NCBI GenBank assembly: GCA_028706475.1
Contig: JAQWBI010000003.1
Location: 1 to 64,000 of the forward strand
Direction: 5' to 3'
Origin: Candidatus Cloacimonadota bacterium
Lineage (GTDB): Bacteria > Cloacimonadota > Cloacimonadia > Cloacimonadales > Cloacimonadaceae
Length of the DNA stretch: 64,000 bases
Part shown: in pieces, positions 19,745-53,107 of the stretch
How positions within the stretch are numbered: the first letter of the stretch is position 1
Layout: every line of letters starts with the position of its first letter
Translations under genes and position numbers: made by a program
The notes under the pieces: model-generated
The model's input: the letters and a program-made list of their open reading frames with translations, nothing else
Told to the model about the DNA's origin: nothing
Databases searched by the model: none

Positions 19745-19897
19745 ATGTTGCAACTACTGCTTAGTAAACCTGAAACGATACAATACTCGCTCTGGATGAT
19801 GGGCCAGGGCATGCTGGGGATATTTGTGTTTACCGGAATATTCTACCTGTTGATCTATGGTTTGGAGAAGATATTTACCCCAAAGAAGGACAAATGA
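19745..19897 (+). CDS. 50-residue OadG-like single-pass membrane protein
   Basis: A short frame starting at ATG 19745, preceded by AGAGGATATGCCTT, and ending with TGA that overlaps the next start (ATGA). The protein has one helix: residues about 18-44 contain MMGQGMLGIFVFTGIFYLLI followed by YGLEKIF and a basic tail TPKKDK. The GxGMxGIFxF pattern is that of the gamma subunit of sodium-pumping decarboxylases (OadG) and related small transporter subunits. No OadA or OadB gene is nearby, so the partner must be coded elsewhere if this reading is right. Translation signals and the two-sided tight spacing support a real gene. Confidence 0.7.
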   Translation: MLQLLLSKPETIQYSLWMMGQGMLGIFVFTGIFYLLIYGLEKIFTPKKDK

Positions 19898-22800
19898 AAC
19901 GGATCATTTTAGCACTGAGTATGTTGTTCTCCATTATATGGATGCAAGCAAGCATCACAGTGGTAGATCAAAGCAGCGATGAAATAACCTTGGATTTTAT
20001 CCTCGATGACTACGATATTGCGGAGGGCCCAGACTTCAGTTCCCTACGCTATCGCGAAGGAGCTTATCCGGAGATACCCGGCTCTCCTTCCATACCGACT
20101 CTGGAATTCAAGATAGGCGTTCCTTCAGATGGCAGCGCCAGTGCTACAATAATCTCCAGCACAAAGACCCGTATCTCCCTTAATAAGAGGATAAAGCCTG
20201 TTCCCACACCGATTTCTAGTGAGGGTATATCCGACTATCTGTATGAAATAAACGAAAGTCTGTATACCACCTACGAGCAAAGCGCATTGTACAGTGTCGG
20301 GCTTCATTCTTTCCGGGATCACCCCTATATGGTGTTTATCATCAATCCCTTCATCTACGACGGTAATCTGGGTCTGGAAGTAATTAAAACTGCCAGAATA
20401 AATGTGCAGATAGCAGGAAATACAGACCAGAAAGGCATCCTCCGCTCAGATCACATGAGCGATGTTTTCTTCAATCAGGTCTTGAATAAAGATAATGCCA
20501 AGTATTGGTTGAAAACCTACCGCACTGATGTTCAATACGCAGACTTTTCTCAATCCCCCTGGTGGGCAAAGATTGAAGTGGACAAGACCGGTATGTTCCG
20601 CATCAACAGATCTCAACTAAGTGACTTTCTTCTTGAAGACATTGATCCCCGTAGTTTCAGACTCTTCGGTACGACAGGGCAGTATCAAGACCAAACCGAG
20701 ATTATGCCAGGAGACAGATTTTCCGAGATACCAATCCAAGTAGTAGGCGCAGATGATGGCAGTTTTGATGCTTCAGATTACATAGTATTCTATGGAGAGG
20801 ATCGTACCGGATACGTGAAGAACTCCATTTTACAAACCTCCGATCAGAGCATCTATCATAATCCATACTCTCACAATGGTATATACTGGCTTAGTTTTGC
20901 CGGAAACTTCCCCAGTCCCCCTCTCCGAATCCAACAGGACGACGTCGTGTTCGCCTATAATGACAGCACCGATTATCACACGGCAAACGTACATATTGAA
21001 CAAGAGTCCTACCGCCCCTCCATAACCGGATATACCTGGTATATGGCCAGAATGAATGGCAATACCACTATGGATTACTCTTTCGATATAGATCTTCCTG
21101 ATCTGGATCCCAGTATTGATCAACAATTGATAATGCGTATGCGTCAGGATTCCGGAACGGGCGCCGTCACAAACCAGATTAGCGTATATGTGAATGGGAA
21201 CTTGGTTCCCAGCTCTGAAACCAATACCAACGTACATACATGGTATGGTTCTACGATCTTCAAGTTCTCCAGATCAACCCAATACTTTGTAGCAGGAAGC
21301 AACACGATTACCATCAGAGTGATCAGAAACTCGTCGAACAACATCAATCTGGATTACTACAGCGTTAGCTACGCTCGCAAATTAATCAAAAAAAACGAGC
21401 AATATACAGTGAATGCAGTGGAAAACAATTTCATGCTGCCCGTGAAGTATATATTTAACGGATATGCCTCAGACATTACAGTTTACAAGGTAATGCCTGG
21501 CAACAATATCAGCAACATAAACATAATGCCGGAATCCGATTCGTTTCATTTTATTACACGCTCAAATGCCGACACCAAATTCTATGTATCCCGTCCTGCA
21601 GAACTCTATAGCCCTGCATCTATCACTGTGCTCGAGCCAAAGGATCTTACTGCTCCCAAGGATCCTGTGGAAAGCGTGATAGTAGTACCCGAAGAGTTCG
21701 CGGGGAAAGCAGAAGAACTAGCAGAGATGTATAGGCAAAACTGGGGCATGGCCACCAGAGTAGTACTTCAATCTGACATCATGAACCAATTCAATGGTGG
21801 TTATCCCGATCCCATGGCTATCCGGCAGTTCCTCCGGTATCTTTATCACAACCTTCCGGAACCCAAGATACGATCGCTCACTCTATTGGGAATGGGTACC
21901 ATGGATTGGCGAAATTACTCCCGGGTCGCCGCTGGAAAAAACAAAGTGATGATATTCCAACATCCTACAAATTATATCACTTCGGACGACTATTTCGGCA
22001 TGCTCACAAACCTGAATCACCCCGAAATTGCCATCGGGAGATACCCGGTAAGCACTTTGTCTGATTTGAACATCATGATGGAAAACTTCAGACGCTATAC
22101 TCAAGAACCCAAACCGGGATTGTGGCGCAACAGCTTGCTTTTCCTTGCTGATGACAACGTAAACGGCACCAATACTATGGACTGGCAACATACCAGAGAC
22201 ATGCAGTCACTTTCCACGTTCATAAATCCCCAGGTATTGAACACCAAGATCTTTGCTGCTGAGTACGACACCGATGAGTTTTTGAACAAACCCCGGGTAA
22301 GGGACGAGATGTTTGAAGAGATCAATGAAGGCAAGTTGATCTGGTATTATATCGGTCACGGTTCTTTTGACACACTGGGTATGCAAAACTACTTTACGGG
22401 TTCTACAGACATAGGGAAATTCCGCAATCCGGATATGCTGCCCCTCTTTATCGCCGCATCCTGTGAGATAAGTGCATTCGACCATTGGTCTTACGAAAGC
22501 CTGGGCCAAAAAACTATTCTTGTCAATAATGGCGGCGCTATAGCGTCCGTTGCTGCTACCCGGAAGAGCTTCCCAGATCCAAACAATGATCTGATGGAAC
22601 TCTTTATCCCAAATATGACAAATTCCCGGATGCCTCTGGGCACAGCGCTCACAGCCGCAAAAACCACTTATACGCAAAGCGTAAACAACGACGCCATGTA
22701 TATAATTCTGGGGGATCCGAACCTATACACAGTACCCCCGCAAAGCATCCCTTCTATCAGACCAATATCTGGAGGAAAAGATAAAAATCTCTTTCACTCC

Positions 22801-23757
22801 CGCCAACATGCTAGTTTTTCCGGCCATATGAACGAAAAAGGCATTAGTGGAGAAGCCTTGTTTAAAGCTTACAATTCCGATTCAGAATATACCTTTGCCG
22901 GTATTGACATCAGTAAAAAGGGCAATCCCATTTTCAATGGTAGTGTAACAGTAAAAGAATCCAGTTTTCATGGTGGTTTCTGGGTTCCCGACGATGTCTT
23001 AAGCGGAAACAGTGGATTGGTACTCAGCTATCTCTGGGACAATGCCAGTAATACTGACTACATCAGTTATTATCACCCCCTCAATCTCTCTGATGAAGTA
23101 CTGCCGGATTCCATGCCGAATGAAGCTCCGCCTGCGATTGACATATTCCTGGGATCTTACGACTTCCGTGCTGGTGATACCGTGAATACTTCCCCTGTAC
23201 TCTATGCAAAAATTGCGGATAGCAATGGAATAAACGTAACCGGAAGTGCTGGTCACAACATCCTTTTGGTGATTGACAACTCATTGCAGCCATTAGTAGT
23301 AACCGGATATTTCACCTATGATGTTGATTCTGCTGTATCGGGTACGCTCACATTTCCAATGCCAACGCTGGACGAGGGACCTCACACAATCCAACTTATC
23401 GCTTTTGACAACTTCAATCTTCCCTCTGTAGCCACTACGCATTTCATCGCCAAAGATAGCGGCCCCATATCATTACAGAATCTGCTGATCTATCCCAATC
23501 CCATGAAGAAGGATGCCCACATCACTTTCATAATTTCCGAAAGCGCAGAAGTAACTGTGGAAATATTTACCATGAGCGGAAGACGCATTCGTCGCATTGA
23601 GACAACTGCCCAGCAAGGATTTAACAAAATCCCCTTTGATGGCAGAGACCAATTTAACGATAAATTGGCCAATAATACCTATTTCTTCCGTGTAAAGGCC
23701 AAAACGCAGGATGGCAAAAGCACTGAAGCTCGTGACCGCTTTGTGGTTTATAAATAA
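19894..23757 (+). CDS. C25 (gingipain-type) cysteine peptidase with type IX-like C-terminal domain
   Basis: A 1287-residue exported protein with a signal peptide (1-18). A beta-rich N-terminal region (to about 585) is followed by a Peptidase C25 domain (about 590-960) whose catalytic pair is visible: His822 in YYIGHGSFD and Cys857 in IAASCEISAFD. Ig-like segments come next. Residues 1198-1287 form a FlgD/type IX sorting-like domain (IYPNPMKKDAHITF, VTVEIFTMSGRRIRRIE, ANNTYFFRVKAKTQDGK). It may be a surface protease or a PorU-like sortase. A second C25 protein lies at 40012-45033. It starts 4 bases inside the OadG-like gene; cysS follows after 10 bp. Confidence 0.88.
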   Translation: MKRIILALSMLFSIIWMQASITVVDQSSDEITLDFILDDYDIAEGPDFSSLRYREGAYPEIPGSPSIPTLEFKIGVPSDGSASATIISSTKTRISLNKRIKPVPTPISSEGISDYLYEINESLYTTYEQSALYSVGLHSFRDHPYMVFIINPFIYDGNLGLEVIKTARINVQIAGNTDQKGILRSDHMSDVFFNQVLNKDNAKYWLKTYRTDVQYADFSQSPWWAKIEVDKTGMFRINRSQLSDFLLEDIDPRSFRLFGTTGQYQDQTEIMPGDRFSEIPIQVVGADDGSFDASDYIVFYGEDRTGYVKNSILQTSDQSIYHNPYSHNGIYWLSFAGNFPSPPLRIQQDDVVFAYNDSTDYHTANVHIEQESYRPSITGYTWYMARMNGNTTMDYSFDIDLPDLDPSIDQQLIMRMRQDSGTGAVTNQISVYVNGNLVPSSETNTNVHTWYGSTIFKFSRSTQYFVAGSNTITIRVIRNSSNNINLDYYSVSYARKLIKKNEQYTVNAVENNFMLPVKYIFNGYASDITVYKVMPGNNISNINIMPESDSFHFITRSNADTKFYVSRPAELYSPASITVLEPKDLTAPKDPVESVIVVPEEFAGKAEELAEMYRQNWGMATRVVLQSDIMNQFNGGYPDPMAIRQFLRYLYHNLPEPKIRSLTLLGMGTMDWRNYSRVAAGKNKVMIFQHPTNYITSDDYFGMLTNLNHPEIAIGRYPVSTLSDLNIMMENFRRYTQEPKPGLWRNSLLFLADDNVNGTNTMDWQHTRDMQSLSTFINPQVLNTKIFAAEYDTDEFLNKPRVRDEMFEEINEGKLIWYYIGHGSFDTLGMQNYFTGSTDIGKFRNPDMLPLFIAASCEISAFDHWSYESLGQKTILVNNGGAIASVAATRKSFPDPNNDLMELFIPNMTNSRMPLGTALTAAKTTYTQSVNNDAMYIILGDPNLYTVPPQSIPSIRPISGGKDKNLFHSRQHASFSGHMNEKGISGEALFKAYNSDSEYTFAGIDISKKGNPIFNGSVTVKESSFHGGFWVPDDVLSGNSGLVLSYLWDNASNTDYISYYHPLNLSDEVLPDSMPNEAPPAIDIFLGSYDFRAGDTVNTSPVLYAKIADSNGINVTGSAGHNILLVIDNSLQPLVVTGYFTYDVDSAVSGTLTFPMPTLDEGPHTIQLIAFDNFNLPSVATTHFIAKDSGPISLQNLLIYPNPMKKDAHITFIISESAEVTVEIFTMSGRRIRRIETTAQQGFNKIPFDGRDQFNDKLANNTYFFRVKAKTQDGKSTEARDRFVVYK

Positions 23758-34205: not shown

Positions 34206-35035
34206 CTTTGGTACTCTCTTCGTGTTTTGGTTCTGGTTAGATGGGTAAAATAACCCTTTTGTGCAAAGTGAGCTGCGCATAACTCAGCTGTCTTTACGTC
34301 TTCAAAAATTCCAAAGCAGGTGGAACCACTTCCGCTTAACATACTCTTGATTGCACCGAAATCATCAAGCTCGATCAATAAGCGATCAACTTCTGGGTAT
34401 AGCTTGCGTACACCGGGTTCAAGTCTGTTATACATCGTGGCAATAGGGTGAAGGGCATCAAACAGCTTTGCCTCGCCGGGAACAGGGAGTTCCACAGCGC
34501 CATAAGCAGTACCGGCAGAGATAGCAATGCCGGGATTCACCAACAAAATGTTATCAATCTTGATATCATCCATTGGGGATATCTTTTCACCTCTATTTTC
34601 ACCAAGGGCCGTTCCGCCGTGCAGAAAGAAGTTGATATCGCTGCCAAACATGGCAGCAATGCGTTCTTTTGCAGCCGGATCAAGGTTCAATTGCCAAAGG
34701 CGATCAAGTGACTCAATAGCATTAGCAGCATTGGAGCTTCCTCCACCTAAACCGGCTGCTATGGGAATCCTCTTTTTCAAGTGAATATCCACACCGCAGT
34801 CAACTTTGTACTCATCTTGTAAATACTTGGCTATCCGGTAGATGAGATTGCTTTGACCGTCTAGTTCAGCAATAGAAGACCACAGTATTATGGCCCTACT
34901 TTTTGTCAAAGCATATTTGATACTGTCAAAAAGGTCAATACTGCTGAGTACAGTATTGACCTGGTGGTAGTTACCGGGAAGGCGTCCCAGTATCTCAAGA
35001 AATAGATTTATTTTTGCGTAAGAAGCGGTTAACAT
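34190..35035 (-). CDS. ispE: 4-diphosphocytidyl-2-C-methyl-D-erythritol kinase
   Basis: A 281-residue GHMP kinase of the MEP isoprenoid pathway. Motifs are TASYAKINLFLEILGRLPGN, the ATP loop PIAAGLGGGSSNAANAI, GSDINFFLHGGTALGE and the C-terminal MLSGSGSTCFGIFED. Start ATG 35035, with CGGAAGA just ahead, gives the usual N terminus; it lies 41 bases inside the 3' end of the BY-kinase gene. The longer upstream frame is the reverse reading of the Tyr repeat and is not coding. Confidence 0.94.
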   Translation of the reverse strand: MLTASYAKINLFLEILGRLPGNYHQVNTVLSSIDLFDSIKYALTKSRAIILWSSIAELDGQSNLIYRIAKYLQDEYKVDCGVDIHLKKRIPIAAGLGGGSSNAANAIESLDRLWQLNLDPAAKERIAAMFGSDINFFLHGGTALGENRGEKISPMDDIKIDNILLVNPGIAISAGTAYGAVELPVPGEAKLFDALHPIATMYNRLEPGVRKLYPEVDRLLIELDDFGAIKSMLSGSGSTCFGIFEDVKTAELCAAHFAQKGYFTHLTRTKTRREYQRCFQS

Positions 35036-37283
35036 TCTTCCGTTGCTTTTTGGGTACCTCATCACCATAGTAATAGTAATAATAGTAGTAATAATAGTAG
35101 TAGTTCTGCTTGTTATAGTACTTTTGGACGTAGATGCCGTTAACGATGATTCCGTCGATCCTGGCATCGATGTTCTCCATTAGTTCTTTAGTGCGTTTGA
35201 TGATGCCCTTATCGGTGAATCCGCACCGAACAACTACAAAGGTCATATCGACCTTTTTGGTAAGGATCAGAGCGTCCGTTACAGCGATCACGGGCGGAGT
35301 ATCAAAGAGTATGTAGTCATACATGGATTTGAGCTCTCTGATCATCTGGTCAAATCTGTTTGAGGCAATCAATTCAGAGGGGTTGGGCGGCACAAATCCG
35401 CTGGTAATGATATCCAGATTCATGATGCCGGATTCTTTTACCACTTGTTCCACCTTCAAATCTGCATCGATAAGATAGTCGCTGGAACCGTTCTCTTTAT
35501 CCAGATCAAACCTGGTATGAATGGTAGGACGTCTCATATCCATATCCACCAAAACCACTCTTGAGTTCATCTGCGCCAAAGTGATGGCAAGGTTCGCTAT
35601 AGAAGTGGATTTACCTTCTTTGGGACCAGAGGAAGTAACCAAAAGGGAAGTACTGCCCTCGGCTTTACGGGATAGAATGTTTGTACGCAGTGTACGATAT
35701 GCTTCTGCAATGGGGGATTTGGGAGCATAGTGCGAAACCAGTTGCTGCATCACGAAGTGCATGGATTTTGCCAATTGTGCCCGGGCTTCTCCCTCGCTTT
35801 TCTCGATCATATCGTTAAATTCAGCAAGTTTGCTTTCAGCTTCACGAATAACGGGGATAGTACCCACAATCGGTAGTCTTACAAAGCTTTCCATGTCTTC
35901 CAGTGTACGCAGTTTCGTATCCAGAGAATGTACCAGGAAAGCAGCACCAACGCCCAAACCAAGACCCAGGATGATACCGACAAGAATGTTCCCCGATACC
36001 CGGGGTTTGATGGGAACATCCGGACGAGTAGCATAATCGATGATACGGATATTTCCCACTTTTGCTTGCTCGGCTATCTTGGCATCTTCATACTTCTCCA
36101 TCATAATGCCATGGATCTTACTATCCAGCATCATGTTCCGGGAAAGTCTCGCCAACTCAAGCTCAGTGTTGGGTAAAGAGATAATGCGCTGTTCATACAT
36201 CTCTTTAGTTTGTTCCAAGCCATTCACTCTGGTACGGGCTAATTCCATATCCACATTGGCCTGAAGCAAGCGATTTACTAAGTCACTTCTGGTGGAAAGA
36301 GGATCCGCGGAAATGGATACACTTACTAGCTTGCGTATTTCCCGATCCAAGTTTGCCCGCGTATTCTCCAATTCACGATTCAGGAGTAATATCTGGGGAT
36401 GATCCAGAGGATATTCGTTTTTGGTGAGTAGCTTGGTGATGAGCGCTTGAGTTTCCACCACTTGTTTCCGCAACTCTGTGATGTATGGCGTCTTGATCAT
36501 GTTGTCGATATCGACCAAAAGGGAATCTTGATCTCGCAATTGCTTGGTTATCAAGTCCAGGCTTTTGGCTTTCACGGCCATATCCGTGAGAGAAGCCTCC
36601 AATTCGGCTTCAAGCTCGGAAGATTGTTCGATCAGTTTTTCTGTTTCAGCGGTCAATTCAGTAAGGCGGTTTAAGTTCTTGAACTCCCTCAAATCATTCT
36701 CAGAAGCCTGTAAGCGCCTGCTGATGGCATCCAACTGAGTTTCCAGGAACTCCCGGATAGTAGTGTATTCCAAGCGCGCAAATTGAGTGTTTTGCTGCTG
36801 AATAGCTTCGGCTATGGCATTCACGGCGGCTTGTGCTTCAGACGGGCTAGTGGATTCTATGGAAATAGTGAGAAGATCTGTTTCACGTTTGGATTCCACC
36901 TTCACTTCGTCTAGTGCCGCAGCAGGATTCTCACGGGATGCTATGGGGAAAAGATCCCAATCGGGATACTTTTTCATGATTTCCCAAGCTAAGGTGAGAG
37001 TGGGACGGCTTTTTATGATCTCAATCTGATTGTTGATGCTGTTTTTTCCCATCCCGGAAGCACCCATAAAGAGGAATTCCGCTCCTTGATTCTGGTCTTC
37101 CAGCATGATGCGTGAAGAAGCTGAATAGATCTTGTCTTGTCTTGCAGTATATACAATTGTAACTGCCATCACGAGCACAAATACCAATACGATCAGATAG
37201 CGGTATTGCAGGATTATCCGTATATAATCTGAAAGTTTAATTTCGTCTTGCAAGGGCTGTTGGTTTTGATATTGATTTTCCAC
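34995..37283 (-). CDS. Wzc-like polysaccharide co-polymerase with BY-kinase domain and poly-tyrosine tail
   Basis: A 762-residue inner-membrane protein. The N-terminal Wzz domain with helix IVLVFVLVMAVTIVYTA (about 33-50) is followed by a long coiled-coil region (about 180-410), a second helix near 440, and a bacterial tyrosine kinase domain. The kinase has Walker A SSGPKEGKSTS (about 550), A' VVLVDMDMRRPT and Walker B ILFDTPPVIAVTDAL (about 660). The tail holds twelve consecutive Tyr (728-739), coded by alternating TAC/TAT. Such kinases autophosphorylate a Tyr cluster to control polysaccharide chain length and export. The SLBB protein upstream fits this role. Confidence 0.92.
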   Translation of the reverse strand: MENQYQNQQPLQDEIKLSDYIRIILQYRYLIVLVFVLVMAVTIVYTARQDKIYSASSRIMLEDQNQGAEFLFMGASGMGKNSINNQIEIIKSRPTLTLAWEIMKKYPDWDLFPIASRENPAAALDEVKVESKRETDLLTISIESTSPSEAQAAVNAIAEAIQQQNTQFARLEYTTIREFLETQLDAISRRLQASENDLREFKNLNRLTELTAETEKLIEQSSELEAELEASLTDMAVKAKSLDLITKQLRDQDSLLVDIDNMIKTPYITELRKQVVETQALITKLLTKNEYPLDHPQILLLNRELENTRANLDREIRKLVSVSISADPLSTRSDLVNRLLQANVDMELARTRVNGLEQTKEMYEQRIISLPNTELELARLSRNMMLDSKIHGIMMEKYEDAKIAEQAKVGNIRIIDYATRPDVPIKPRVSGNILVGIILGLGLGVGAAFLVHSLDTKLRTLEDMESFVRLPIVGTIPVIREAESKLAEFNDMIEKSEGEARAQLAKSMHFVMQQLVSHYAPKSPIAEAYRTLRTNILSRKAEGSTSLLVTSSGPKEGKSTSIANLAITLAQMNSRVVLVDMDMRRPTIHTRFDLDKENGSSDYLIDADLKVEQVVKESGIMNLDIITSGFVPPNPSELIASNRFDQMIRELKSMYDYILFDTPPVIAVTDALILTKKVDMTFVVVRCGFTDKGIIKRTKELMENIDARIDGIIVNGIYVQKYYNKQNYYYYYYYYYYYYGDEVPKKQRKNVNRFLRKNKSIS

Positions 37284-37301
37284 TTATGCCTTCCTTAGAG
37301 A

Positions 37302-37784
37302 TTATAATCCAGTAACAAGATTGTACACGCTGAGTGTGACTGCTGCTTTCGAGAGGAAATCTGCCACTCTTGAGAATGCATAGAATATTGTTCCGGAAAC
37401 GACGATGGTGTCACCGGGCTTCATTACTGGAATCAATGCCGCATCTCCGGTTTCCATGTACTTTTTAAAGTTCACCCACACTACTTTTTCCCCTTCTTCG
37501 CTGGGTCGTACTATCCTGATTTTTGAGAGCTTTGCGTCTTCCTTTGGACCACCGGCCAGAGCCAGCAAGGTAAGAAAATCAGTGTCGTCCGGCACTACAT
37601 AGAGCCCTGGTTTTGCTACTTGGCCCAAAATAAATGTATTCATCTTGAGCTTTTCTACCCCACTTCTACTGCCATCGAATGTATATGCCGAAATATTGCT
37701 CGACGGTGTAAAGGTCGAAGTGGTCTGACCAAATAGACTTAAACCAATACAGATCAATAGGATCGCAAACAGAATCTTCTTCAC
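37302..37784 (-). CDS. short SLBB-domain polysaccharide export protein
   Basis: A 160-residue exported protein with a signal peptide (KKILFAILLICIGLSLFGQ). One SLBB domain follows (FILGQVAKPGLYVVPDDTDF, LTLLALAGGPKEDAKLSKIR), then VMKPGDTIVVSGTIFYAFSR and a C-terminal hydrophobic segment. It is much shorter than Wza (about 380) and lacks the Poly_export domain, so it cannot form the whole outer-membrane channel. It may be a periplasmic or inner-membrane accessory of the BY-kinase, whose gene follows after 18 bp. Confidence 0.82.
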   Translation of the reverse strand: MKKILFAILLICIGLSLFGQTTSTFTPSSNISAYTFDGSRSGVEKLKMNTFILGQVAKPGLYVVPDDTDFLTLLALAGGPKEDAKLSKIRIVRPSEEGEKVVWVNFKKYMETGDAALIPVMKPGDTIVVSGTIFYAFSRVADFLSKAAVTLSVYNLVTGL

Positions 37785-38210: not shown

Positions 38211-38984
38211 TTATAAAACAGTAAAGACCCGTTCCAAGGATTCCGAGCCCATATACATCTGTTTATCCCCATCCAAAACAAAGTAATCTACTCGCCAGCG
38301 TAATACGCTTCCCGATGCGATTGGGGGATTAAGCTGCGGTAGCTTTAGAGACAAAGGCGGATCTTCTGTAGCCAAGTCGAAATCATTACTCCAAAGCAGA
38401 TCGTTGTTCTCGTCCCATACAAGAACGCGATAGAAACCAATACTATCATCTGCTAAGCCCCACACAAAGCTGAGACCTTCCGGAGTATTAAGATTCACAT
38501 ACGCATTGTTCTCCGGAGATATCAATCCTGGCTTACTCAGAATGGCATAATGCACAGTGTCCGATATACTGCTATTCCCGCTAATGTCAAACAGTTCAAT
38601 ATAGTAATAATACCAGTGCTTTTCCACCAAGTCATTTTGATCGAGATAGTCCCGATTACTTGCTGGGACTTGAGCCAGCTCCAGCGGATCCGGTTCGATA
38701 TCGGAATAACGGTATATTTTCAAGTAACTTAGATCGTTATCGACAAAAGGTTCCCAAGTAAGGTGGATCATGTCACCTTCTGGAACGGTGTCGATACCGT
38801 TATTTTCATCGTTCAATGTGATATAAGTGTCTTCGTCCAAGAAGAAAACACCGTCACCGGTATCACCCCGGTGAGCGATCAAAACGGGCTTTACCGGAGG
38901 AATGTTATCCTTTCCGATTTCGTCTTCACCAGAACAGGAGCCCAACATAAGGGCTATAAGAACAATCCATATAATGTTTCTCAT
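38211..38984 (-). CDS. unknown lipoprotein with fibronectin III-like parts
   Basis: A 257-residue lipoprotein. Start ATG 38984 has AGGAGTAATA ahead and gives a leader ending in MLGSCSGEDE (lipobox LGSC, Cys17). Longer in-frame starts lie in the PorV-like gene and are rejected. The mature part looks like two Fn3-type modules: MIHLTWEPFVDNDLSYLKIY, HWYYYYIELFDISGNSSIS, then PEGLSFVWGLADDSIGFYRV. It is the third gene of the C25-PorV-lipoprotein unit and is probably surface or periplasmic. No specific role is recognised. Confidence 0.78.
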   Translation of the reverse strand: MRNIIWIVLIALMLGSCSGEDEIGKDNIPPVKPVLIAHRGDTGDGVFFLDEDTYITLNDENNGIDTVPEGDMIHLTWEPFVDNDLSYLKIYRYSDIEPDPLELAQVPASNRDYLDQNDLVEKHWYYYYIELFDISGNSSISDTVHYAILSKPGLISPENNAYVNLNTPEGLSFVWGLADDSIGFYRVLVWDENNDLLWSNDFDLATEDPPLSLKLPQLNPPIASGSVLRWRVDYFVLDGDKQMYMGSESLERVFTVL

Positions 38985-38992
38985 TATTACTC

Positions 38993-40000
38993 CTAAAAAC
39001 TGATTCTCAAACCCAGTCTGTTGGTTATCCCAACCGGGTTTGTGATAAGGGCATAATCCAGCATCACACCATATACTTTCACGCTGGCGCCACAACTGAA
39101 ATTTGTATCGTAATAACCCAAACGCAGATTGGCTTTGTTATCATAATTCCATTCTATCCCATAATGATTGGTGCCGCCATACACATAATCGTAGTCATAG
39201 GCCAGTAGTATTGTACTTTTCAGCTTTTCCAAAGGCTGCACCAGAGCGACACCGGCCTTGGTATTGAAAAGAACTTCATCCCGAATCTCGCTGTTCGTAT
39301 CCCAGCTGATCGTAGTCCCTGCCACATCTTGGAAATTGATACCTACATGTAGATCGCCCAGGTAATCCTCATCAAACAGTACGGACATATCGGTACGCAG
39401 CTTCACTCCCAGATCAAATCCAGTACCCGTACCCAAGTTGTCTTTCAGTTTGCGTTGAATGAATTTCACATTGCCGCCCAAGCCGAGTTCAAAAGGTATC
39501 TCAAAGAACTGCCAGCCCATATTTACACCAAACTTGATGTTCTTGGAAAACGCAAACTGGTACAGATCGTCCGTTGATCGGAAGTGTCCGTCCGGTATTC
39601 CCGGCAATTGGTTTGCAATGCTTTGGATTCTCTGATCCACTGTCCCCTCCAGATGGCTCTCGTCGAATATGGGGATATCGTCCACAGACAATCTGGTTAG
39701 GTTAAAGGCAATTGATACATCATTCGGCAATGGTTGCACATAACCCATATAATCATAGCTGGCCAAATTACCGTACAGGAAAGCATGCATCACCTGAACT
39801 TCAGAATCGCGGATTTGGGACAACCCTCCGCTGTTCCAATAGATCGCCGAACCATCGTCTGCCAGAGCCGAGAAAGCACCACCCATGCCCAAAGCGCGAA
39901 CTCCGGAGCCTATCATCATGAAGTCACCGGCATATCTGCCCGCAAAAGCTGGTGCACAGCAGAACAAGCTCATAAGGCCAAGAAAGAATATCTTCTTCAT
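38993..40000 (-). CDS. PorV/UPF0164-family outer-membrane protein
   Basis: A 335-residue barrel with a signal peptide (KKIFFLGLMSLFCCAPAFAG). The family signature follows: MIGSGVRALGMGGAFSALAD, DGSAIYWNSGGLSQ, then repeated strands and the end ITNRLGLRISF with terminal Phe. FadL-like PorV proteins act in type IX secretion as shuttle or anchor for secreted cargo and partner the sortase PorU. The directly upstream gene (11 bp) codes a C25 peptidase, the same order as porU-porV in Bacteroidota. The PorV/PorQ subtype is not certain. Confidence 0.82.
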   Translation of the reverse strand: MKKIFFLGLMSLFCCAPAFAGRYAGDFMMIGSGVRALGMGGAFSALADDGSAIYWNSGGLSQIRDSEVQVMHAFLYGNLASYDYMGYVQPLPNDVSIAFNLTRLSVDDIPIFDESHLEGTVDQRIQSIANQLPGIPDGHFRSTDDLYQFAFSKNIKFGVNMGWQFFEIPFELGLGGNVKFIQRKLKDNLGTGTGFDLGVKLRTDMSVLFDEDYLGDLHVGINFQDVAGTTISWDTNSEIRDEVLFNTKAGVALVQPLEKLKSTILLAYDYDYVYGGTNHYGIEWNYDNKANLRLGYYDTNFSCGASVKVYGVMLDYALITNPVGITNRLGLRISF

Positions 40001-40011
40001 CTCTGCTCCCC

Positions 40012-43000
40012 TTATCTCAGAATGGCCATTTTCATGGTCTTCTCGATTTTCTTGTTCCCCCGGCGGGCAACCACTCTATAGAAGTAAGTCCCATTCGCCA
40101 GAAGGAAGCCTTGTTCGTCCCTACAGTCCCATGCATAAAGGGTTCTGGGATATTCATGATATCCCACCCCCGTAGGAAGATCCCTAAATGTCTTCACCAA
40201 TCTGCCGCTAATAGTATATACTTTAATGTAAACCTCATCCGCAGAGTCGGTTAGTACATATGTGAAACGAGTCCGACCATCATTCTTGGGATCTTGAGCC
40301 TGGCCTAATACCGGATTGGGATAATTGGCAATATTCAGTATGTTGAATTCGTCGTTTACGATGAATTGAGCTTCACGGGACATAACATTACCGTTTAGAT
40401 CTGTACAAACAACCTTGAGGTTGTGATCTCCCTTCTGCAGATCGAGCTGATACTTCACCGGTACCCGATTGATGTTCTCTTTATTGATGCTGATCACATA
40501 ATCTGTTTCGGGAATTTCTGAACCATTCAAAGATAGATGGATTCTGTTGTCGATCAAATCGATACCGTTGGCATCGCTCAACAGCAACGAGATCACTCCG
40601 TCTCCCGCCACGTAGCCGCCTACAGTAAATTCCTGATCCTGAACGTTCACTTCTATTGTTGGAGGTGTATTGTCCGTATTCCGGAATATGCAATAGGTAC
40701 CCTGTCTTGCCACCTCAAAACTTACGGTGTCATTCGACAGATCCATGTGTCCGCCTACCAGAATCCACTTCTGATAGTCGGTATTGTAACGATATATCTT
40801 GAAGCTGTATTCAGATTCAAAGTCTTGCGTATCATCGTCATTTGAGCTGTACTTGAATGTGAGGTTCAGCTTTTTGCCATTATCGAAGAAACCCAGAGAA
40901 TCCACCAGACTGGTATTCAACAGCTTGATCTCATACGGGATGGACAATTGGAGATCGCTGCCTTCCGCAGGATTCTGCATCAGGATTGTTTGAAGATCAG
41001 GCTGATTCAGCAATTGGATATTATCCAAGTCATTAACAGCAAATCCAACTGATCCGGAGTTCACAAATCCTGGAGGCACAGTACAAGTAAGGTTGTTGTC
41101 TAGGCTGTTGATGCTGGCTCCTCCGCTGTCCACACTGAAGTAATTCATAGGTATTTCAATGGGAATGTAGTTGTTTGTGTTTACAAAGAAATCCCATTCC
41201 TGAAATACAAAAGTGGTATTCACTCTCACTTCCAATTGATGGTTACCATTGGGTAAATCTTCCAATGAGATAGTATCCCAACGGTATTCTTCCACATCCA
41301 GAGGAGCAAAATCCTGCTCCGAAACCATTATCCAAACATCTCTAACCCTCTTGAACAGCCTCAAATCAGTTGTAAGCGACGCTGCGTTCCCCACATTGGT
41401 CGATTTTACTTTCAGTACAGGAATACCATCGTTTGCATCTAGAAGTATCTCCTGAAGGAATAGATCCGGACCTGCTACGTGGAAAGACTGCAATGGGCTT
41501 TCAAAAACCAGCGTATCCTTATCCGTGATATAATACTTGAATGGTATTTCACGCTTGGTCGGAAATTTGCGAAGCTTCGTGTCGGTCTTCCACAAGGTGT
41601 TGTCTTCAGCATCCGGACTCATGGAATAGTTCTCCCATAGCACTTCCCACGTTTGTGTTTTGGGGTAATAGACACTATCGGTTCTTACTGCCACATATAA
41701 GCTCATGATGTCCTGGGGATTGAAGACTCTTGCCATAAATACCGTAGAATCAGTATAAACAGGCTGGGCAGGAATAAATCCTTCGTGTTTTACGGCAGGA
41801 CGTCCCACGCTGTAGAAAGTGGTGCCAATATATTGTTTGGCCGGTGAATATCCCGATACCATTATCTTGTTTGTATAGTTACTGGAGCCCTGAGGTATTT
41901 CATAGTTGGATAGGAACTCACCTGAGACCAGATCTATGTCGTATGGCACGTTTTTTACGGTCTCATTCTCGTTCATGATATACATCCGAGCCCTTGCTAC
42001 ATCAGCAGGGAATTGGGCTTGCACGCTCAAGGACTCTCCTGGTTCCGGATTGTGGTTCTGAGTAACCACTGTGTTATGCACTATCGGTTTGTTCAAGCTT
42101 ATCAGAGGATCCCCCAAATAGACTGACCCATTTGTGAGGGCGTATCTGGAGGCAGCGCTGGAAGTGGTCGTATAGTACCTTGCCAGAGCAAATACATATG
42201 CCTCTCCCAAGGTATCGAAATCCATCTTGAACGCAGCTTCACTAAAGGCATGACCCCAGTCCTCATCCTGCATAAGGTATCCCAATCCGGAAAAGCCCAA
42301 GGTTACGATTGCTCCTTTATCTGGTTGAGCAATAAGCGCTTCAGATATCGATGCAGCACCGTTTGTATCAAATGCTGAGGCATAACATGCCAAAGATAGT
42401 ACTACCGGAAGGACTTGATTGTTCAAAGTAGCCACATCATTGAAGTTAAACAAGTTGTAATCTGCCCATACACGACCGCCACCGTGCCCCATAAATTGGA
42501 CGAATTGAGTACCGCTATTTATTGCGTCTTTCAAGTCAAATGTGCCCCCAAAATATTCGCTGCTGACGGTTTGAGTACTGGTATATACCCTAGTTACGCG
42601 ATAGTGTTCTGGGATGCTTCTGCGGCGGATTCTCTCGGATTGCTGAGAGAAGATGTCGTTTCCATCGTCTATCTTGCCTCCAGCAGTTAATGTAACATGG
42701 TTGTTCCATTGACGGTTGGTGTACAGATTGTCTCGATAGGATTTAGCTTTCAGGGCATAGTCTGAGATTTGTTCTTCTGTCCATACATTGATGCGCGCAA
42801 GACTGATATCCGGCACCAAATCATCACCCACAATGCAGGCATACCAGGTATCGCTGGCAGTTGCTCCATGTTTGAAAGTCCAAGTCTTCTTTACAGGAAT
42901 CAGGTTGTACTTGCGGCTAGGGCTGTTGTCCCTTGTATCATCAATACCTTCGCCCAAGAGAATTACATGACTCAAACGGGGAGTTCTCCAATGATTGTAA

Positions 43001-45033
43001 GCGTGTGTCAGAAAATCTTTAATTGCCTCGGCAGACACAATACCGTTGTTGAACTCATCATATATATCCTGAATATCTACTGTCTTCACAGTATGGCCTT
43101 CTGAAGACCAGAGATCGGTCAGCATCTGAGTCCCTTCCGATTCCATAAACTGATATGGAGTAATCACGACCACATTTGCTGAATTCATCGGATTCTTCAG
43201 ATCTGAGGGCAGGTTCATGCGCAGTAGTTTTGGGCTCTTTTTGGCACCCTCTTCCACGGCATAATAGAGGACGGCATTTGAGGATACACTATCCTGTAAA
43301 CTAACGGTCCAAGGAGCAGTACCATCCATTGTAAAAGGCTCTATTTGTAAGCCGTTAAACACACTGGAGCCAATCTTGTAAACAGATACATTGGGAGACG
43401 AAAACCCTCCTATATCAAATTGGAACAATCCATTGGGGCGATCAATGGGCTTAGTAAACTTAATGAAGTCTCTGTCGGTTCTATACTCTCTCCAATACTG
43501 CAGTTTGATGTAATCCAACATTACCTGTTCTTTCTCCAGCATCGTTGTGTTTCCGGAAAGACTGATATAGACATTATTGGTACCGTGGTGAAAGAACGAA
43601 TTGGCAATCGGTTCCTTGTTTAGAAAGATCTTCTCAGTTTGCCCAATCCAGGAATGAGTGTTCACCATAGCCTGATTTATCCTGATGGATGCATCGTGAT
43701 CGACCTGCCCTACCGAGAGAGTATCATTATATGTAAGGCCATGTAAAGCTATTTCTGTGTTCCCCTTGCGGACTGCACTATCAATGGGATACTCCAATTC
43801 GATGGGAACTATTTCCAGATTGGGTGCCTTGATTTTTTCCCAAAACCACACATCTTCACGATAAAACTCCTGATCACTATTCTGCCATCCCCTTCCCAGT
43901 TTATCGCTTACCAATTGTTTTTCAAAATGGACAGATTCCAGATATGCATCCGCCAGCATATACTCCATCGGATTACTGCTGATCAAACCTCCGTTTTCTA
44001 CGGCCATGCGGGCTCCATATCCTTCTGTCACACCTAAAGTATAAACATTTTCGGCCGTATAATCGTCACTATAGCGTTCGTCTCCGTAATGCCGATCGCC
44101 AAAGAACTCGAAGAAATCGCCATTATCGAAGCTACCGTCCTCTTCTCCATGGAAGTGTATCGGTACTTGCCCATACTCATCTCTCAATTCCAGATTACGT
44201 GGATCCACCTGGTCGATGTTCCAACTCATCTCCACCTGCAGTGAATCTGTCATCTCCGCAATAAAATCTCTCAACTTACTGTATTGAACTTTGAATATGC
44301 CTTCGCTATCTACGATTATCTGGATATCAGACACGTGATTCTCAGATCCCTTGGGGCTTTCGTATTGATAATCCTGTTTTGGTAGCTGACGCCATGCTTT
44401 GGAACTGGCATTATTCACAAAAAAAGCATCGCCTGCTACATCAATCGGGCTGTAGCCAAGCTGCCAGTTCTGTGCGGGGCTCTTAGTTCCGGAGATATTT
44501 ACACTGATCTCCATCTCTTGATATACTCTCAGCTCTTTGCCGGCAGCATTATACTGAAAGGGGTATATTCGAAGAGTCACAAATCTCCGATCTCCCACAA
44601 AAGCCGGTTTGGATACTTCCAACACCTGTGTGGGATACATACCTGCTTTTGAATAAGCACGAAAATCTCTCTTGGAACTGTACACCGGCATTTCGTCCCG
44701 CAAATCCATAGTTGGAACAGGATGGATCAATACTTCAGTTACAGTGTTTTGTACTGAAGATAGCAAGCGGGCAGAAGCTCCGCCATCGATGGGAACAGCG
44801 ATAGGAACGCTAAACATCCTCAGTTCGGGATAGCCTTCGTCCGCTGTGCTTACACCATCATCCATCATCAGACGTTTGAATCGCAAACCATCTACATTGA
44901 TTTCTGTTAGATTGTACTCGGGCATCACAAACTTCAGAGTAATAGTATCCTTGTTTTCGTTTACCACGCTGATGGGATTTGCCAAGAGAACAAGCGGCAA
45001 CAAGATCAGCAAGCATATATATAGTCTTCTCAT
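40012..45033 (-). CDS. giant C25 cysteine peptidase, PorU-like, with type IX-like C-terminal domain
   Basis: A 1673-residue exported protein with signal peptide RRLYICLLILLPLVLLANP. A beta-rich N-terminal half leads to the C25 domain (about 615-990) with His850 in FMGHGGGRVWAD and Cys883 in LACYASAFD. Several Ig-like or beta modules follow, and a FlgD/type IX sorting-like C terminus (about 1570-1673: NYPNPVLGQAQDP, VYIKVYTISGRLVKTF, LLANGTYFYRVVARRG). Its place before a PorV-like gene suggests the PorU sortase role; a secreted protease is the alternative. Start 45033 is chosen because GGGAG stands five bases before it; ATG 45048 is too close to that site. Confidence 0.88.
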   Translation of the reverse strand: MRRLYICLLILLPLVLLANPISVVNENKDTITLKFVMPEYNLTEINVDGLRFKRLMMDDGVSTADEGYPELRMFSVPIAVPIDGGASARLLSSVQNTVTEVLIHPVPTMDLRDEMPVYSSKRDFRAYSKAGMYPTQVLEVSKPAFVGDRRFVTLRIYPFQYNAAGKELRVYQEMEISVNISGTKSPAQNWQLGYSPIDVAGDAFFVNNASSKAWRQLPKQDYQYESPKGSENHVSDIQIIVDSEGIFKVQYSKLRDFIAEMTDSLQVEMSWNIDQVDPRNLELRDEYGQVPIHFHGEEDGSFDNGDFFEFFGDRHYGDERYSDDYTAENVYTLGVTEGYGARMAVENGGLISSNPMEYMLADAYLESVHFEKQLVSDKLGRGWQNSDQEFYREDVWFWEKIKAPNLEIVPIELEYPIDSAVRKGNTEIALHGLTYNDTLSVGQVDHDASIRINQAMVNTHSWIGQTEKIFLNKEPIANSFFHHGTNNVYISLSGNTTMLEKEQVMLDYIKLQYWREYRTDRDFIKFTKPIDRPNGLFQFDIGGFSSPNVSVYKIGSSVFNGLQIEPFTMDGTAPWTVSLQDSVSSNAVLYYAVEEGAKKSPKLLRMNLPSDLKNPMNSANVVVITPYQFMESEGTQMLTDLWSSEGHTVKTVDIQDIYDEFNNGIVSAEAIKDFLTHAYNHWRTPRLSHVILLGEGIDDTRDNSPSRKYNLIPVKKTWTFKHGATASDTWYACIVGDDLVPDISLARINVWTEEQISDYALKAKSYRDNLYTNRQWNNHVTLTAGGKIDDGNDIFSQQSERIRRRSIPEHYRVTRVYTSTQTVSSEYFGGTFDLKDAINSGTQFVQFMGHGGGRVWADYNLFNFNDVATLNNQVLPVVLSLACYASAFDTNGAASISEALIAQPDKGAIVTLGFSGLGYLMQDEDWGHAFSEAAFKMDFDTLGEAYVFALARYYTTTSSAASRYALTNGSVYLGDPLISLNKPIVHNTVVTQNHNPEPGESLSVQAQFPADVARARMYIMNENETVKNVPYDIDLVSGEFLSNYEIPQGSSNYTNKIMVSGYSPAKQYIGTTFYSVGRPAVKHEGFIPAQPVYTDSTVFMARVFNPQDIMSLYVAVRTDSVYYPKTQTWEVLWENYSMSPDAEDNTLWKTDTKLRKFPTKREIPFKYYITDKDTLVFESPLQSFHVAGPDLFLQEILLDANDGIPVLKVKSTNVGNAASLTTDLRLFKRVRDVWIMVSEQDFAPLDVEEYRWDTISLEDLPNGNHQLEVRVNTTFVFQEWDFFVNTNNYIPIEIPMNYFSVDSGGASINSLDNNLTCTVPPGFVNSGSVGFAVNDLDNIQLLNQPDLQTILMQNPAEGSDLQLSIPYEIKLLNTSLVDSLGFFDNGKKLNLTFKYSSNDDDTQDFESEYSFKIYRYNTDYQKWILVGGHMDLSNDTVSFEVARQGTYCIFRNTDNTPPTIEVNVQDQEFTVGGYVAGDGVISLLLSDANGIDLIDNRIHLSLNGSEIPETDYVISINKENINRVPVKYQLDLQKGDHNLKVVCTDLNGNVMSREAQFIVNDEFNILNIANYPNPVLGQAQDPKNDGRTRFTYVLTDSADEVYIKVYTISGRLVKTFRDLPTGVGYHEYPRTLYAWDCRDEQGFLLANGTYFYRVVARRGNKKIEKTMKMAILR

Positions 45034-45044
45034 CATAACTCCCT

Positions 45045-46295
45045 TCATGAAAGCTTGTTTGCCCTAAGGCCGATATCTTTACGATAGACCATTTCCGGAA
45101 AACTTATCTTATTTATATCTGCATAGACTTTATCACGTGCTTCGACCAAACTGTCAGCAATTGCTAATACTGTCAACACCCTTCCTCCGGAACTGCGTAA
45201 ACCACTTTCTGTTTTTTTCACTCCGGCAAAGTACAATTGGGATTCGAGCTGCGGTATTGATATCGGAATGTCTTTCCGATAAGTGCCTGGATATCCCGGA
45301 GCAGCCAATACCACTCCGACTGCGCAACGTGAGTCCCATTCCAGCTTCAGTTGATCAACCTTACCATCGCATGCGGCCACACATATATCCATGATATCAG
45401 TCTTTAAAAGAGGTAATAGCACCTGAGTTTCTGGATCTCCCAAACGGCAGTTGAATTCTATCACTTTCGGCCCTTCAGTAGTAATCATCAAGCCCATATA
45501 CAATATCCCGCTATATGTGCAATGCTCTTCCCTTAACGCAGTTAGCACTGGTTCCAATATTTTATTTTCGATGTACTTCCGGTATTCTTCAGCTTCGCGT
45601 ACAGGACAGTATGCTCCCATACCCCCTGTATTTGGCCCAAAATCACCATCGTACAACTGTTTATGATCCTGAGCAAAAAGAGTAGTACGGAAGTTTTCGC
45701 CGTCACAGATAGCAAAAAGGGATACTTCCCAGCCGTCCAGATATTCTTCCGCCAGCACTCCATTTGCTCCGCAATTCTGCTCCAGGAGTACTTTACACGA
45801 CTTAATCGCTTCGCTAAGATCGGAAGATATCACCACTCCCTTACCGGCTGCCAATCCATCAGCTTTCAGGACTACAGGCATCTTGAAGCACTTCAGAATG
45901 CTCTCTGCTTCATTAATGTCTCGGATGATCCGATACCTGGCTGTTGGTACGTGATACTTGCCCATGATCCTTTTTGCAAATTCTTTGGAATATTCTATTG
46001 CAGCGGCGGCTTTTGAAGGAGCAAACACCATGATCGAGTGCTGTTTCAGGTAATCCGACAGACCTTCTGCAATTGGCTGTTCGGGCCCGATGAAGACTAG
46101 ATCTATCCCTGTATTCTCACAGAAGTTCCTGATCTCTTCAAATCCCTCCAGCTTTATGCACTCAAAGCTTTCTGCTATTCCATCGTTCCCTGGACTTACG
46201 TAAATTTTGCTTGTTTTAGGACTACGGTCAAAGGCATCCGCTATCGCATGCTCTCTGGCTCCGCTTCCCAGTATCAATACTTTCACGTTACTCAT
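45045..46295 (-). CDS. purD: phosphoribosylamine-glycine ligase
   Basis: A 416-residue ATP-grasp ligase of de novo purine synthesis. Motifs are KVLILGSGAREHAIADAF, SPGNDGIAE, FIGPEQPIAEGLSDYL, VVLKADGLAAGKGVVISS, FGPNTGGMGAYCPV and VIEFNCRLGDPETQVLLPLL. It joins glycine to phosphoribosylamine. It overlaps cinA by 8 bases; no other pur gene is adjacent. Confidence 0.96.
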   Translation of the reverse strand: MSNVKVLILGSGAREHAIADAFDRSPKTSKIYVSPGNDGIAESFECIKLEGFEEIRNFCENTGIDLVFIGPEQPIAEGLSDYLKQHSIMVFAPSKAAAAIEYSKEFAKRIMGKYHVPTARYRIIRDINEAESILKCFKMPVVLKADGLAAGKGVVISSDLSEAIKSCKVLLEQNCGANGVLAEEYLDGWEVSLFAICDGENFRTTLFAQDHKQLYDGDFGPNTGGMGAYCPVREAEEYRKYIENKILEPVLTALREEHCTYSGILYMGLMITTEGPKVIEFNCRLGDPETQVLLPLLKTDIMDICVAACDGKVDQLKLEWDSRCAVGVVLAAPGYPGTYRKDIPISIPQLESQLYFAGVKKTESGLRSSGGRVLTVLAIADSLVEARDKVYADINKISFPEMVYRKDIGLRANKLS

Positions 46296-52161: not shown

Positions 52162-53107
52162 CGGTCCTCCCAAACATCAGGTTGTGTTTTTTATTATGGT
52201 CTTCACTAAAATTGACGTCTATGATTTCGTCAACATATTTATTTATTCTTCTTGCCATCAGGTTTGCTTTTACCAAGTTTAAGTACAAAACAGAAGTGGT
52301 TATACGGCCAATTCCTCCGGGTACGGGAGTAATAGAACCAGCCTTTTTGGCACAGGCATCATAATCCACGTCTCCCACAAAAGAGCTGCTGCCATCAGGA
52401 CTAATAATCTCATTGATCCCCACATCGATCAATACTGAGCCTTCACGAATCATATCAGCTTTCACAAAATGCGCTTTGCCAATGGCGGAAATCAGAATGT
52501 CTGCCGATCTGCATATTTGCTCCAGATTCCGGGTTTGGCTGTGGCATATTGTTACGGTGGCGTTTGCAAAAGGTCTCTTCCACAGCAAGATGTTTGCCAA
52601 TGGCTTACCAACCACGTTTGAACGCCCCAGAATCACAGTGTGTTTCCCCTTGGGGTCTATCCCATAATATCTCATGGTATAATAAACCGCAGCAGGTGTA
52701 CAGGGCAAAAACACCTCATTCTCCATCAGTATCTTACCCAAATTCACCGGATGCAGAGCGTCCAAATCCTTATCTGGGCTCACACTGATGTTTATTATGC
52801 TGTCATCAATGTCTTTGGGCAAGGGTTTCTGGATCATGATCCCGTGAATATCAGGATTATCGTTTGCCTCAGCAATAATTTTCAGTAGCTTTTCCTGCCC
52901 ACAATCTATTACTAAAGCAAGCAATTCTGCCTCGCAACCAAGTTTTGCAGCTGTATTCACTATACTTTGTACATAGTAAGAGCTGGCGGGATCATCTCCC
53001 ACTTGAATCAAAAGCATCTTGGGCTTCAAATCATACTCTGCCACCAAGCTTTTGGAAACCTTGTTGATTGCCAATGCTATTGCTTTTCCGGATAATACTT
53101 TTGGCAC
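52154..53107 (-). CDS. folD: bifunctional methylene-THF dehydrogenase / methenyl-THF cyclohydrolase
   Basis: A 317-residue FolD. Motifs are KMLLIQVGDDPASSYYVQS (catalytic Tyr and neighbouring residues), HGIMIQKPLPKDIDDSIINI, SPDKDLDALHPVNLG, the cofactor loop VILGRSNVVGKPLANILLW and the end AGSITPVPGGIGRITTSVL. It interconverts methylene- and formyl-tetrahydrofolate. About 30 extra residues at the C terminus are not part of the usual fold. It shares one base with the YmdB-like start region. Confidence 0.95.
   Translation of the reverse strand: MPKVLSGKAIALAINKVSKSLVAEYDLKPKMLLIQVGDDPASSYYVQSIVNTAAKLGCEAELLALVIDCGQEKLLKIIAEANDNPDIHGIMIQKPLPKDIDDSIINISVSPDKDLDALHPVNLGKILMENEVFLPCTPAAVYYTMRYYGIDPKGKHTVILGRSNVVGKPLANILLWKRPFANATVTICHSQTRNLEQICRSADILISAIGKAHFVKADMIREGSVLIDVGINEIISPDGSSSFVGDVDYDACAKKAGSITPVPGGIGRITTSVLYLNLVKANLMARRINKYVDEIIDVNFSEDHNKKHNLMFGRTDE

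Follow-up and report, generated by a model that had tools for sequence, protein, structure and literature searches.

Does the Candidatus Cloacimonadota, in which a C25 peptidase gene stands directly in front of the gene of an outer-membrane barrel, possess an attachment module of the type IX secretion system (T9SS)? Several papers call this system specific to Bacteroidota (for example PMC7463736 and PMC4980022), and in another one Cloacimonadota are named among its possible carriers (PMC11285876). The question is raised by contig JAQWBI010000003.1 of the genome assembly GCA_028706475.1, of which positions 1 to 64,000 were analysed as one stretch, in the following referred to as the window. A sequence-only reading had described a C25 peptidase, a PorV-like barrel and a lipoprotein in this stretch as one unit, and all three genes do lie at the described place on the minus strand with gaps of 8-11 bp. 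The names PorU2 and PorV2 are given here to the C25 protein and the barrel, respectively. According to our analysis, the gene pair porU2-porV2 has a little better than even chances of being a second T9SS attachment module, consisting of a SprA-exported, PorV2-anchored PorU2 acting as second surface sortase.

This is first of all suggested by the spread of the pair. Residues 30-1560 of PorU2 served as query for a survey of 124 Cloacimonadota genomes, 70 of them good, and matched every one at E 1e-5. The match was strong (E 4.5e-57 or better, fragments included) in 110 genomes, among them 68 of the 70 good ones, and the two good genomes with a weak match only are fragmented into 550 and 680 contigs. 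PorV2 followed PorU2 in 48 of 50 loci, corresponding to 43 of 45 genomes, and the remaining two loci (L042, L068) stop at a contig edge. The distance between both genes ranged from -4 to 213 bp with a median of 10 bp, and lay at 7-12 bp in 35 of the 48 loci; in five loci of family f13, the two genes overlapped by 4 bp. Thus, the pair is syntenic across the phylum and its adjacency is far from chance. The occurrence outside Bacteroidota, as proposed by the sequence-only reading, was also evident from the named genomes, which were scanned with a C25 alignment (80 of 285 relatives kept, as 78 loci): 77 loci carried Cloacimonadota, Cloacimonetes or Cloacimonadales titles or Candidatus genera, i.e., Syntrophosphaera, Tenebribacter, Zophobacter, Celaenobacter, and Cloacimonas. 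For the three genera checked, Syntrophosphaera, Tenebribacter, and Celaenobacter, the affiliation with Candidatus Cloacimonadota was confirmed. The single other locus (L127), with a PorU2 39% identical, lies on a contig titled Armatimonadetes, possibly a misnamed bin.

In the T9SS, PorU removes sorting domains and attaches cargo to lipopolysaccharide. The resemblance to the PorU-PorV pair of Bacteroidota comprises a sortase-like C25 protein with sorting domain, a putative His-Cys site and a PorV-like barrel whose gene comes immediately next. The proposed mirroring of the order porU-porV holds for one record of Parabacteroides distasonis (NZ_OY725768.1, L261), which is 388 kb long, labelled as plasmid, carries rex and ispF besides porU-porV and may be a piece of the chromosome. 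A search of plasmids was uninformative: of the two records obtained, one carries an annotated PorU and the other a hypothetical protein.

In PorU2 itself, a start resembling a signal peptide (by reading) is followed by a C25 prodomain (Pfam Propeptide_C25, 8.6e-19, residues 28-194), a PorU-like N-terminal region (residues 243-620), the peptidase domain (Peptidase_C25, 2e-77, residues 627-985) and a PorU-like C-terminal part with the sorting domain (residues 1458-1674), the terminus being matched by a FlgD_ig-type domain (residues 1591-1664, 2.3e-08, 34.3 bits, cut-off 27). The PorU model NF033707 aligned in two pieces, to residues 243-1002 and to the C-terminal part, with 262.3 bits in total vs. 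a cut-off of 420. Among solved sequences, PorU of Porphyromonas gingivalis was the best match (E 3e-13). As it aligned again to residues 1458-1674, the stretch of approximately 450 residues that separates the C25 domain from the PorU-like C-terminal part, and for which PorU alignments have no counterpart, represents an insertion, in agreement with the unusual architecture with extra modules noted before. H855, C888, and D863 were invariant in all 21 PorU2 proteins aligned; by their position, H855 and C888 are the putative catalytic His-Cys pair of C25. The sorting domain is supported by the FlgD_ig match and by the PorU profile, whose C-terminal part aligns there, and the sorting domain model TIGR04183 was matched by 10 of the 21 members, the protein of the window not being one of them. 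Scans of three PorU2 proteins gave no match to the gingipain-type C25_C domain, which was present in the single C25 cargo protein scanned. Both the layout shared with PorU and the missing C25_C match argue for a sortase-like protein. All 21 PorU2 proteins also matched the NCBIfam model NF052324 and all 20 PorV2 proteins the model NF052325, which describe PorU2 and PorV2 as "putative type IX" proteins. The two model names would imply an adjacent pair of C25 protein and barrel, as present in the 43 of 45 genomes. The window proteins scored far under both cut-offs (166.2 vs. 450 bits and 102.1 vs. 325 bits), and the C25 protein scored similarly in the same region with the PorU model (179 bits) and NF052324 (166 bits), so that they resemble the NCBIfam PorU2 and PorV2 without being members.

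A T9SS is indicated in this genome. The translocon protein SprA (TIGR04189) reached 490.6 bits at a cut-off of 200, and was found in 114 of the 124 genomes, above cut-off in 110, and in all 70 good ones. Besides PorV2, the own genome features four PorV-family barrels above cut-off, and 43 of the 50 matches that were listed there for the PorU profile fall on C-terminal sorting domains, that of PorU2 included. On contig C10 of this genome (L168, 4981-9290), a PorV-family barrel adjoins an M6-like protein bearing a sorting domain, and more neighbourhoods of barrel plus client occur at L170 and L169. Regarding the surroundings of SprA, PorU and SprA are close together in a genome of another family (L174, 2652-13475), separated only by a pantothenate-kinase-like gene, and SprA of the own genome likewise comes after a type III pantothenate kinase gene (L017).

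The link to type IX secretion made by the sequence-only reading therefore stands as far as the system is concerned; the identification of the window's C25 protein as PorU does not. The candidacy of this protein as the PorU of the genome was rejected, since a search with the PorU profile ranked the protein encoded at 19894-23757 of the window first (607.9 bits, cut-off 420) and PorU2 second, and since the former groups with Bacteroidota PorU. This protein aligned over most of its length with PorU of P. gingivalis (E 6e-54, as compared to 3e-13 for PorU2). It also carries the C25 prodomain, as does PorU2, while Pfam finds none in PorU of P. distasonis. PorU exceeded the cut-off in 71 of the 124 genomes; in many f10 rows, the match to the profile does not start before position 335-370, and the scores of 365-430 bits lie around the cut-off. 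The relation of PorU2 to PorU and gingipain-like cargo was addressed by two phylogenies of the C25 domain. A maximum likelihood tree of 36 rows (21 PorU2, nine Cloacimonadota PorU, five C25 cargo proteins of the own genome, and P. gingivalis PorU) grouped P. gingivalis PorU with Cloacimonadota PorU at 99/97 and PorU2 as one clade at 99/99, the five cargo proteins forming long divergent branches. In a second tree of 35 rows, P. distasonis PorU was added and the two longest-branch cargo rows were left out. All PorU fell on one side at 100/99, and a constraint uniting PorU2 with Bacteroidota PorU was rejected (approximately unbiased test, p 0.0051). Accordingly, PorU2 is a clade separate from PorU, as distinct from the PorU affiliation suggested earlier, and the branch towards cargo is weak. 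In contrast to Bacteroidota PorU, it thus forms a clade of its own, remains below the PorU cut-off, contains the additional 450 residues or so and coexists with a true PorU.

In view of its position in the second tree, on the cargo side of PorU, PorU2 may have originated as a surface protease long ago and not be a sortase, and it may be more closely related to gingipain-like cargo. Such a conserved protease for peptide scavenging, displayed by a dedicated PorV2 and not involved in the processing of type IX cargo, is the main rival of the sortase and is considered rather unlikely. PorU2 has the C25 domain, the prodomain and the sorting domain in common with gingipain-like cargo proteases; nevertheless, the gingipain-like prodomain is no argument for a gingipain role as it also occurs in the own PorU. 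Other PorV-family barrels of the genome adjoin large sorting-domain proteins as well, which means that the pairing of barrel and client is not special to sortases. Against a mere protease speaks that PorU2 is retained over approximately 1,500 residues throughout the phylum, whereas the C25 cargo of the own genome is divergent, and that the PorU N- and C-terminal regions surround its C25 domain. Moreover, unlike gingipain-like cargo, PorU2 is syntenic with a barrel across the phylum, forms a distinct clade and gave no C25_C match in the three proteins scanned.

For PorV2, NF052325 is the best NCBIfam model, followed by the PorV family NF033709 with 77 bits (cut-off 90), and a match to UPF0164 lies slightly above cut-off. 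A search of PDB sequences with PorV2 gave no match. The AlphaFold model (mean predicted local distance difference test score, pLDDT, of 82) resembled two T9SS PorV chains most, 8gl6_F and 6h3i_F, at template modelling (TM) scores of 0.60-0.67 and 14% identity, and PorV2 is hence predicted to have the PorV fold. FadL and TodX rank after PorV among these fold matches, which, together with the UPF0164 match, might be taken to mean that PorV2 is an ordinary FadL-type transporter whose place beside a C25 gene has no functional meaning. This appears very improbable given that PorV ranks above FadL in fold, that all 20 PorV2 members match the PorV2 and PorV-family models and that the pairing with PorU2 lasts across the phylum. 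Identities are higher among PorV2 (43-80%) than among PorU2 proteins (33-67%).

PorU2 is best read as a T9SS-exported sortase or processing protease which would be held at the surface by PorV2. It would be exported by Sec and cross the outer membrane through SprA via its own C-terminal sorting domain. PorV2 may then take it up, serving it as cognate shuttle and as anchor at the surface in the way that PorV serves PorU. After removal of the prodomain, the Cys-His site would be active on the cell surface, where PorU2 might cut, and perhaps re-link, the sorting domains of some cargo proteins and would thus act as a second sortase. We infer the export route, the binding of PorU2 to PorV2, the proteolysis or transpeptidation and the substrates from the features described above. 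The logic of a cognate shuttle has a precedent in Flavobacterium johnsoniae, where a type B substrate has its cognate carrier in the shuttle whose gene comes immediately after its own (PMC12618676). The outer-membrane shuttle gene follows its client directly in both cases; however, SprF and type B domains are involved in F. johnsoniae, whereas in porU2-porV2 the barrel is of PorV type and the sorting domain FlgD-like and type-A-like.

Several points weigh against a second attachment module. A bona fide PorU already supplies a sortase, and the GldL/GldM motor driving export in Bacteroidota was not found. Both window proteins lie below the cut-offs of the respective families, PorU2 far under those of PorU and NF052324, PorV2 far under that of NF052325 and also under that of the PorV family. 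In 14 of the 124 genomes, only a weak PorU2 match was obtained (E 1.9e-31 to 3e-12), which may be due to PorU or cargo. Furthermore, the branch separating PorU and PorU2 from cargo C25 in the first tree is weak (75/67), and the second tree places PorU2 together with three cargo rows opposite PorU.

With regard to the motor, a check of the genome had been proposed for SprA, PorL, and PorM; SprA is present, and the PorL and PorM homologues GldL and GldM were not found. GldL gave no match at E 10 in the own genome, to which its search was confined. GldM was not found there either and exceeded the cut-off in none of the 124 genomes, in a search with no T9SS-bearing positive control. Seven matches of 11-15 bits occurred among these genomes, three of them with internal stop codons. 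One control genome was a Bacteroides, a genus reported to lack a T9SS (PMC11285876). As the control set was devoid of a T9SS-bearing genome, the absence is one of a recognisable motor only. GldLM, shown to be the motor of the T9SS, is powered by protons and has been compared with ExbBD and MotAB (PMC8986121), and the own genome encodes three MotA/ExbB proteins. An operon on its contig C2 (L206, 1879-8001; L169, 1-8639) comprises, in this order, a TonB-dependent receptor, ExbB, two ExbD, TonB, a 1046-aa protein, a PorV-family barrel and a sorting-domain protein. The 1046-aa protein was matched in 113 of 124 genomes. The order from ExbB to PorV was complete in all 16 long loci across the phylum, that from the first ExbD to PorV in 27 of 30 shorter loci, the other three being cut by contig ends, and the receptor gene lay upstream in 15 of the 16 long loci, the last one being cut likewise. 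It is conceivable, and in our view unlikely, that the T9SS of Cloacimonadota operates without GldLM and that a Ton motor powers export and the sorting of clients to PorV-type barrels, PorU2-PorV2 included. The argument that type IX export must be the purpose of the ExbBD-TonB operon, since nothing else would need it, is weakened by the receptors and by TonB-dependent receptor plug domains in 123 of 124 genomes, which make an ordinary Ton system the likelier role of the operon. Another set of ExbB-ExbD-ExbD, on contig C5 (L208, 3715-5592), stands beside a 1373-aa open-ended open reading frame (ORF) and a small secreted-looking protein and is possibly another envelope motor.

The sequence-only reading had further considered the lipoprotein as third member of the system. 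This could not be upheld. The lipoprotein is present in 12 of 20 long loci, every one with the gene order of the window, and was not found behind PorV2 in any of the six f13 loci examined, whereas L067 (690 bases past PorV2, no lipoprotein match) and L068 reach contig ends. Its candidacy as universal core member is thus rejected; it looks like an accessory, and the core unit consists of the two genes porU2-porV2. Its likely start is the ATG at 38984, from which the listed ORF is extended to a TTG. An alignment of 13 such proteins, that of the window included, shows Cys17 to be invariant, and the structural model (pLDDT 80) gave generic tandem Fn3/Ig fold matches with low TM-scores. Genes of an SLBB-domain protein and a Wzc-type kinase follow it in 10 of the 12 long loci carrying it, at 14-61 bp in the six of these loci that belong to other families and, within the own family, at 83-325 bp in four loci and 426 bp in the window. 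These neighbours would allow a reading in which PorU2-PorV2 links cargo proteins to a polysaccharide of the cell surface produced with SLBB and Wzc, with the lipoprotein as outer-membrane scaffold, all the more as the T9SS attachment complex anchors cargo to anionic lipopolysaccharide (A-LPS) according to an excerpt (PMC12618676). Nevertheless, this seems quite improbable. Neither lipoprotein nor SLBB-Wzc was found behind PorV2 in the six f13 loci, so that the pair does not need them there, SLBB and Wzc are not behind the lipoprotein in L064 and L076, and the gap is wide in the own family. Hence, the lipoprotein and the polysaccharide genes look like accessories of one gene order.

The features are compiled in Table 1. 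The minus-strand run reads proS-cinA-purD-C25-barrel-lipoprotein, its genes overlapping or lying only a few bases apart, and the names of the first three genes stem from reading the sequences. Translational coupling of purD and porU2 is possible in view of their overlap. The Wzc-type kinase (34995-37283, minus strand) bears an uninterrupted stretch of 12 tyrosines at its C-terminal end. Upstream of proS, an 844-aa lipoprotein-like protein (49639-52173, minus strand) has a relative in L077 and matched no Pfam or NCBIfam model at E 0.01.

Table 1. Coordinates of the genes discussed, counted from the first position of the window.
Feature	Position	Strand	Remarks
PorU2	40012..45048	-	C25 peptidase; 1678 aa from first ATG, 1673 from 45033
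PorV2	38993..40000	-	FadL/PorV-type outer-membrane barrel; 335 aa; 11 bp behind porU2
Lipoprotein, two Fn3-like domains	38211..38984	-	257 aa; 8 bp behind porV2
purD	45045..46295	-	3' end overlaps porU2 start by 4 bp
SLBB-domain protein and Wzc-type kinase	34995..37784	-	Downstream neighbours of the lipoprotein
Canonical PorU	19894..23757	+	1287 aa; between rlmH and cysS; outside the unit, decisive for its naming

Among literature titles and abstract openings, no second sortase pair or motor-less T9SS was described for Cloacimonadota. The term "PorV2" in an excerpt of PMC10994853 is PorV followed by a reference number and not this barrel. On this basis, three things seem to be new: a phylum-wide second sortase pair, the joint occurrence of SprA, PorU, and PorU2 throughout Cloacimonadota, and the fact that no GldM is recognisable. 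A system present across the phylum with SprA and two sortase-like proteins, in which a motor is not recognisable, would suggest that coupling of the translocon to something else is possible. If a second sortase with its own barrel holds true, the sorting of type IX cargo at the cell surface splits into parallel routes.

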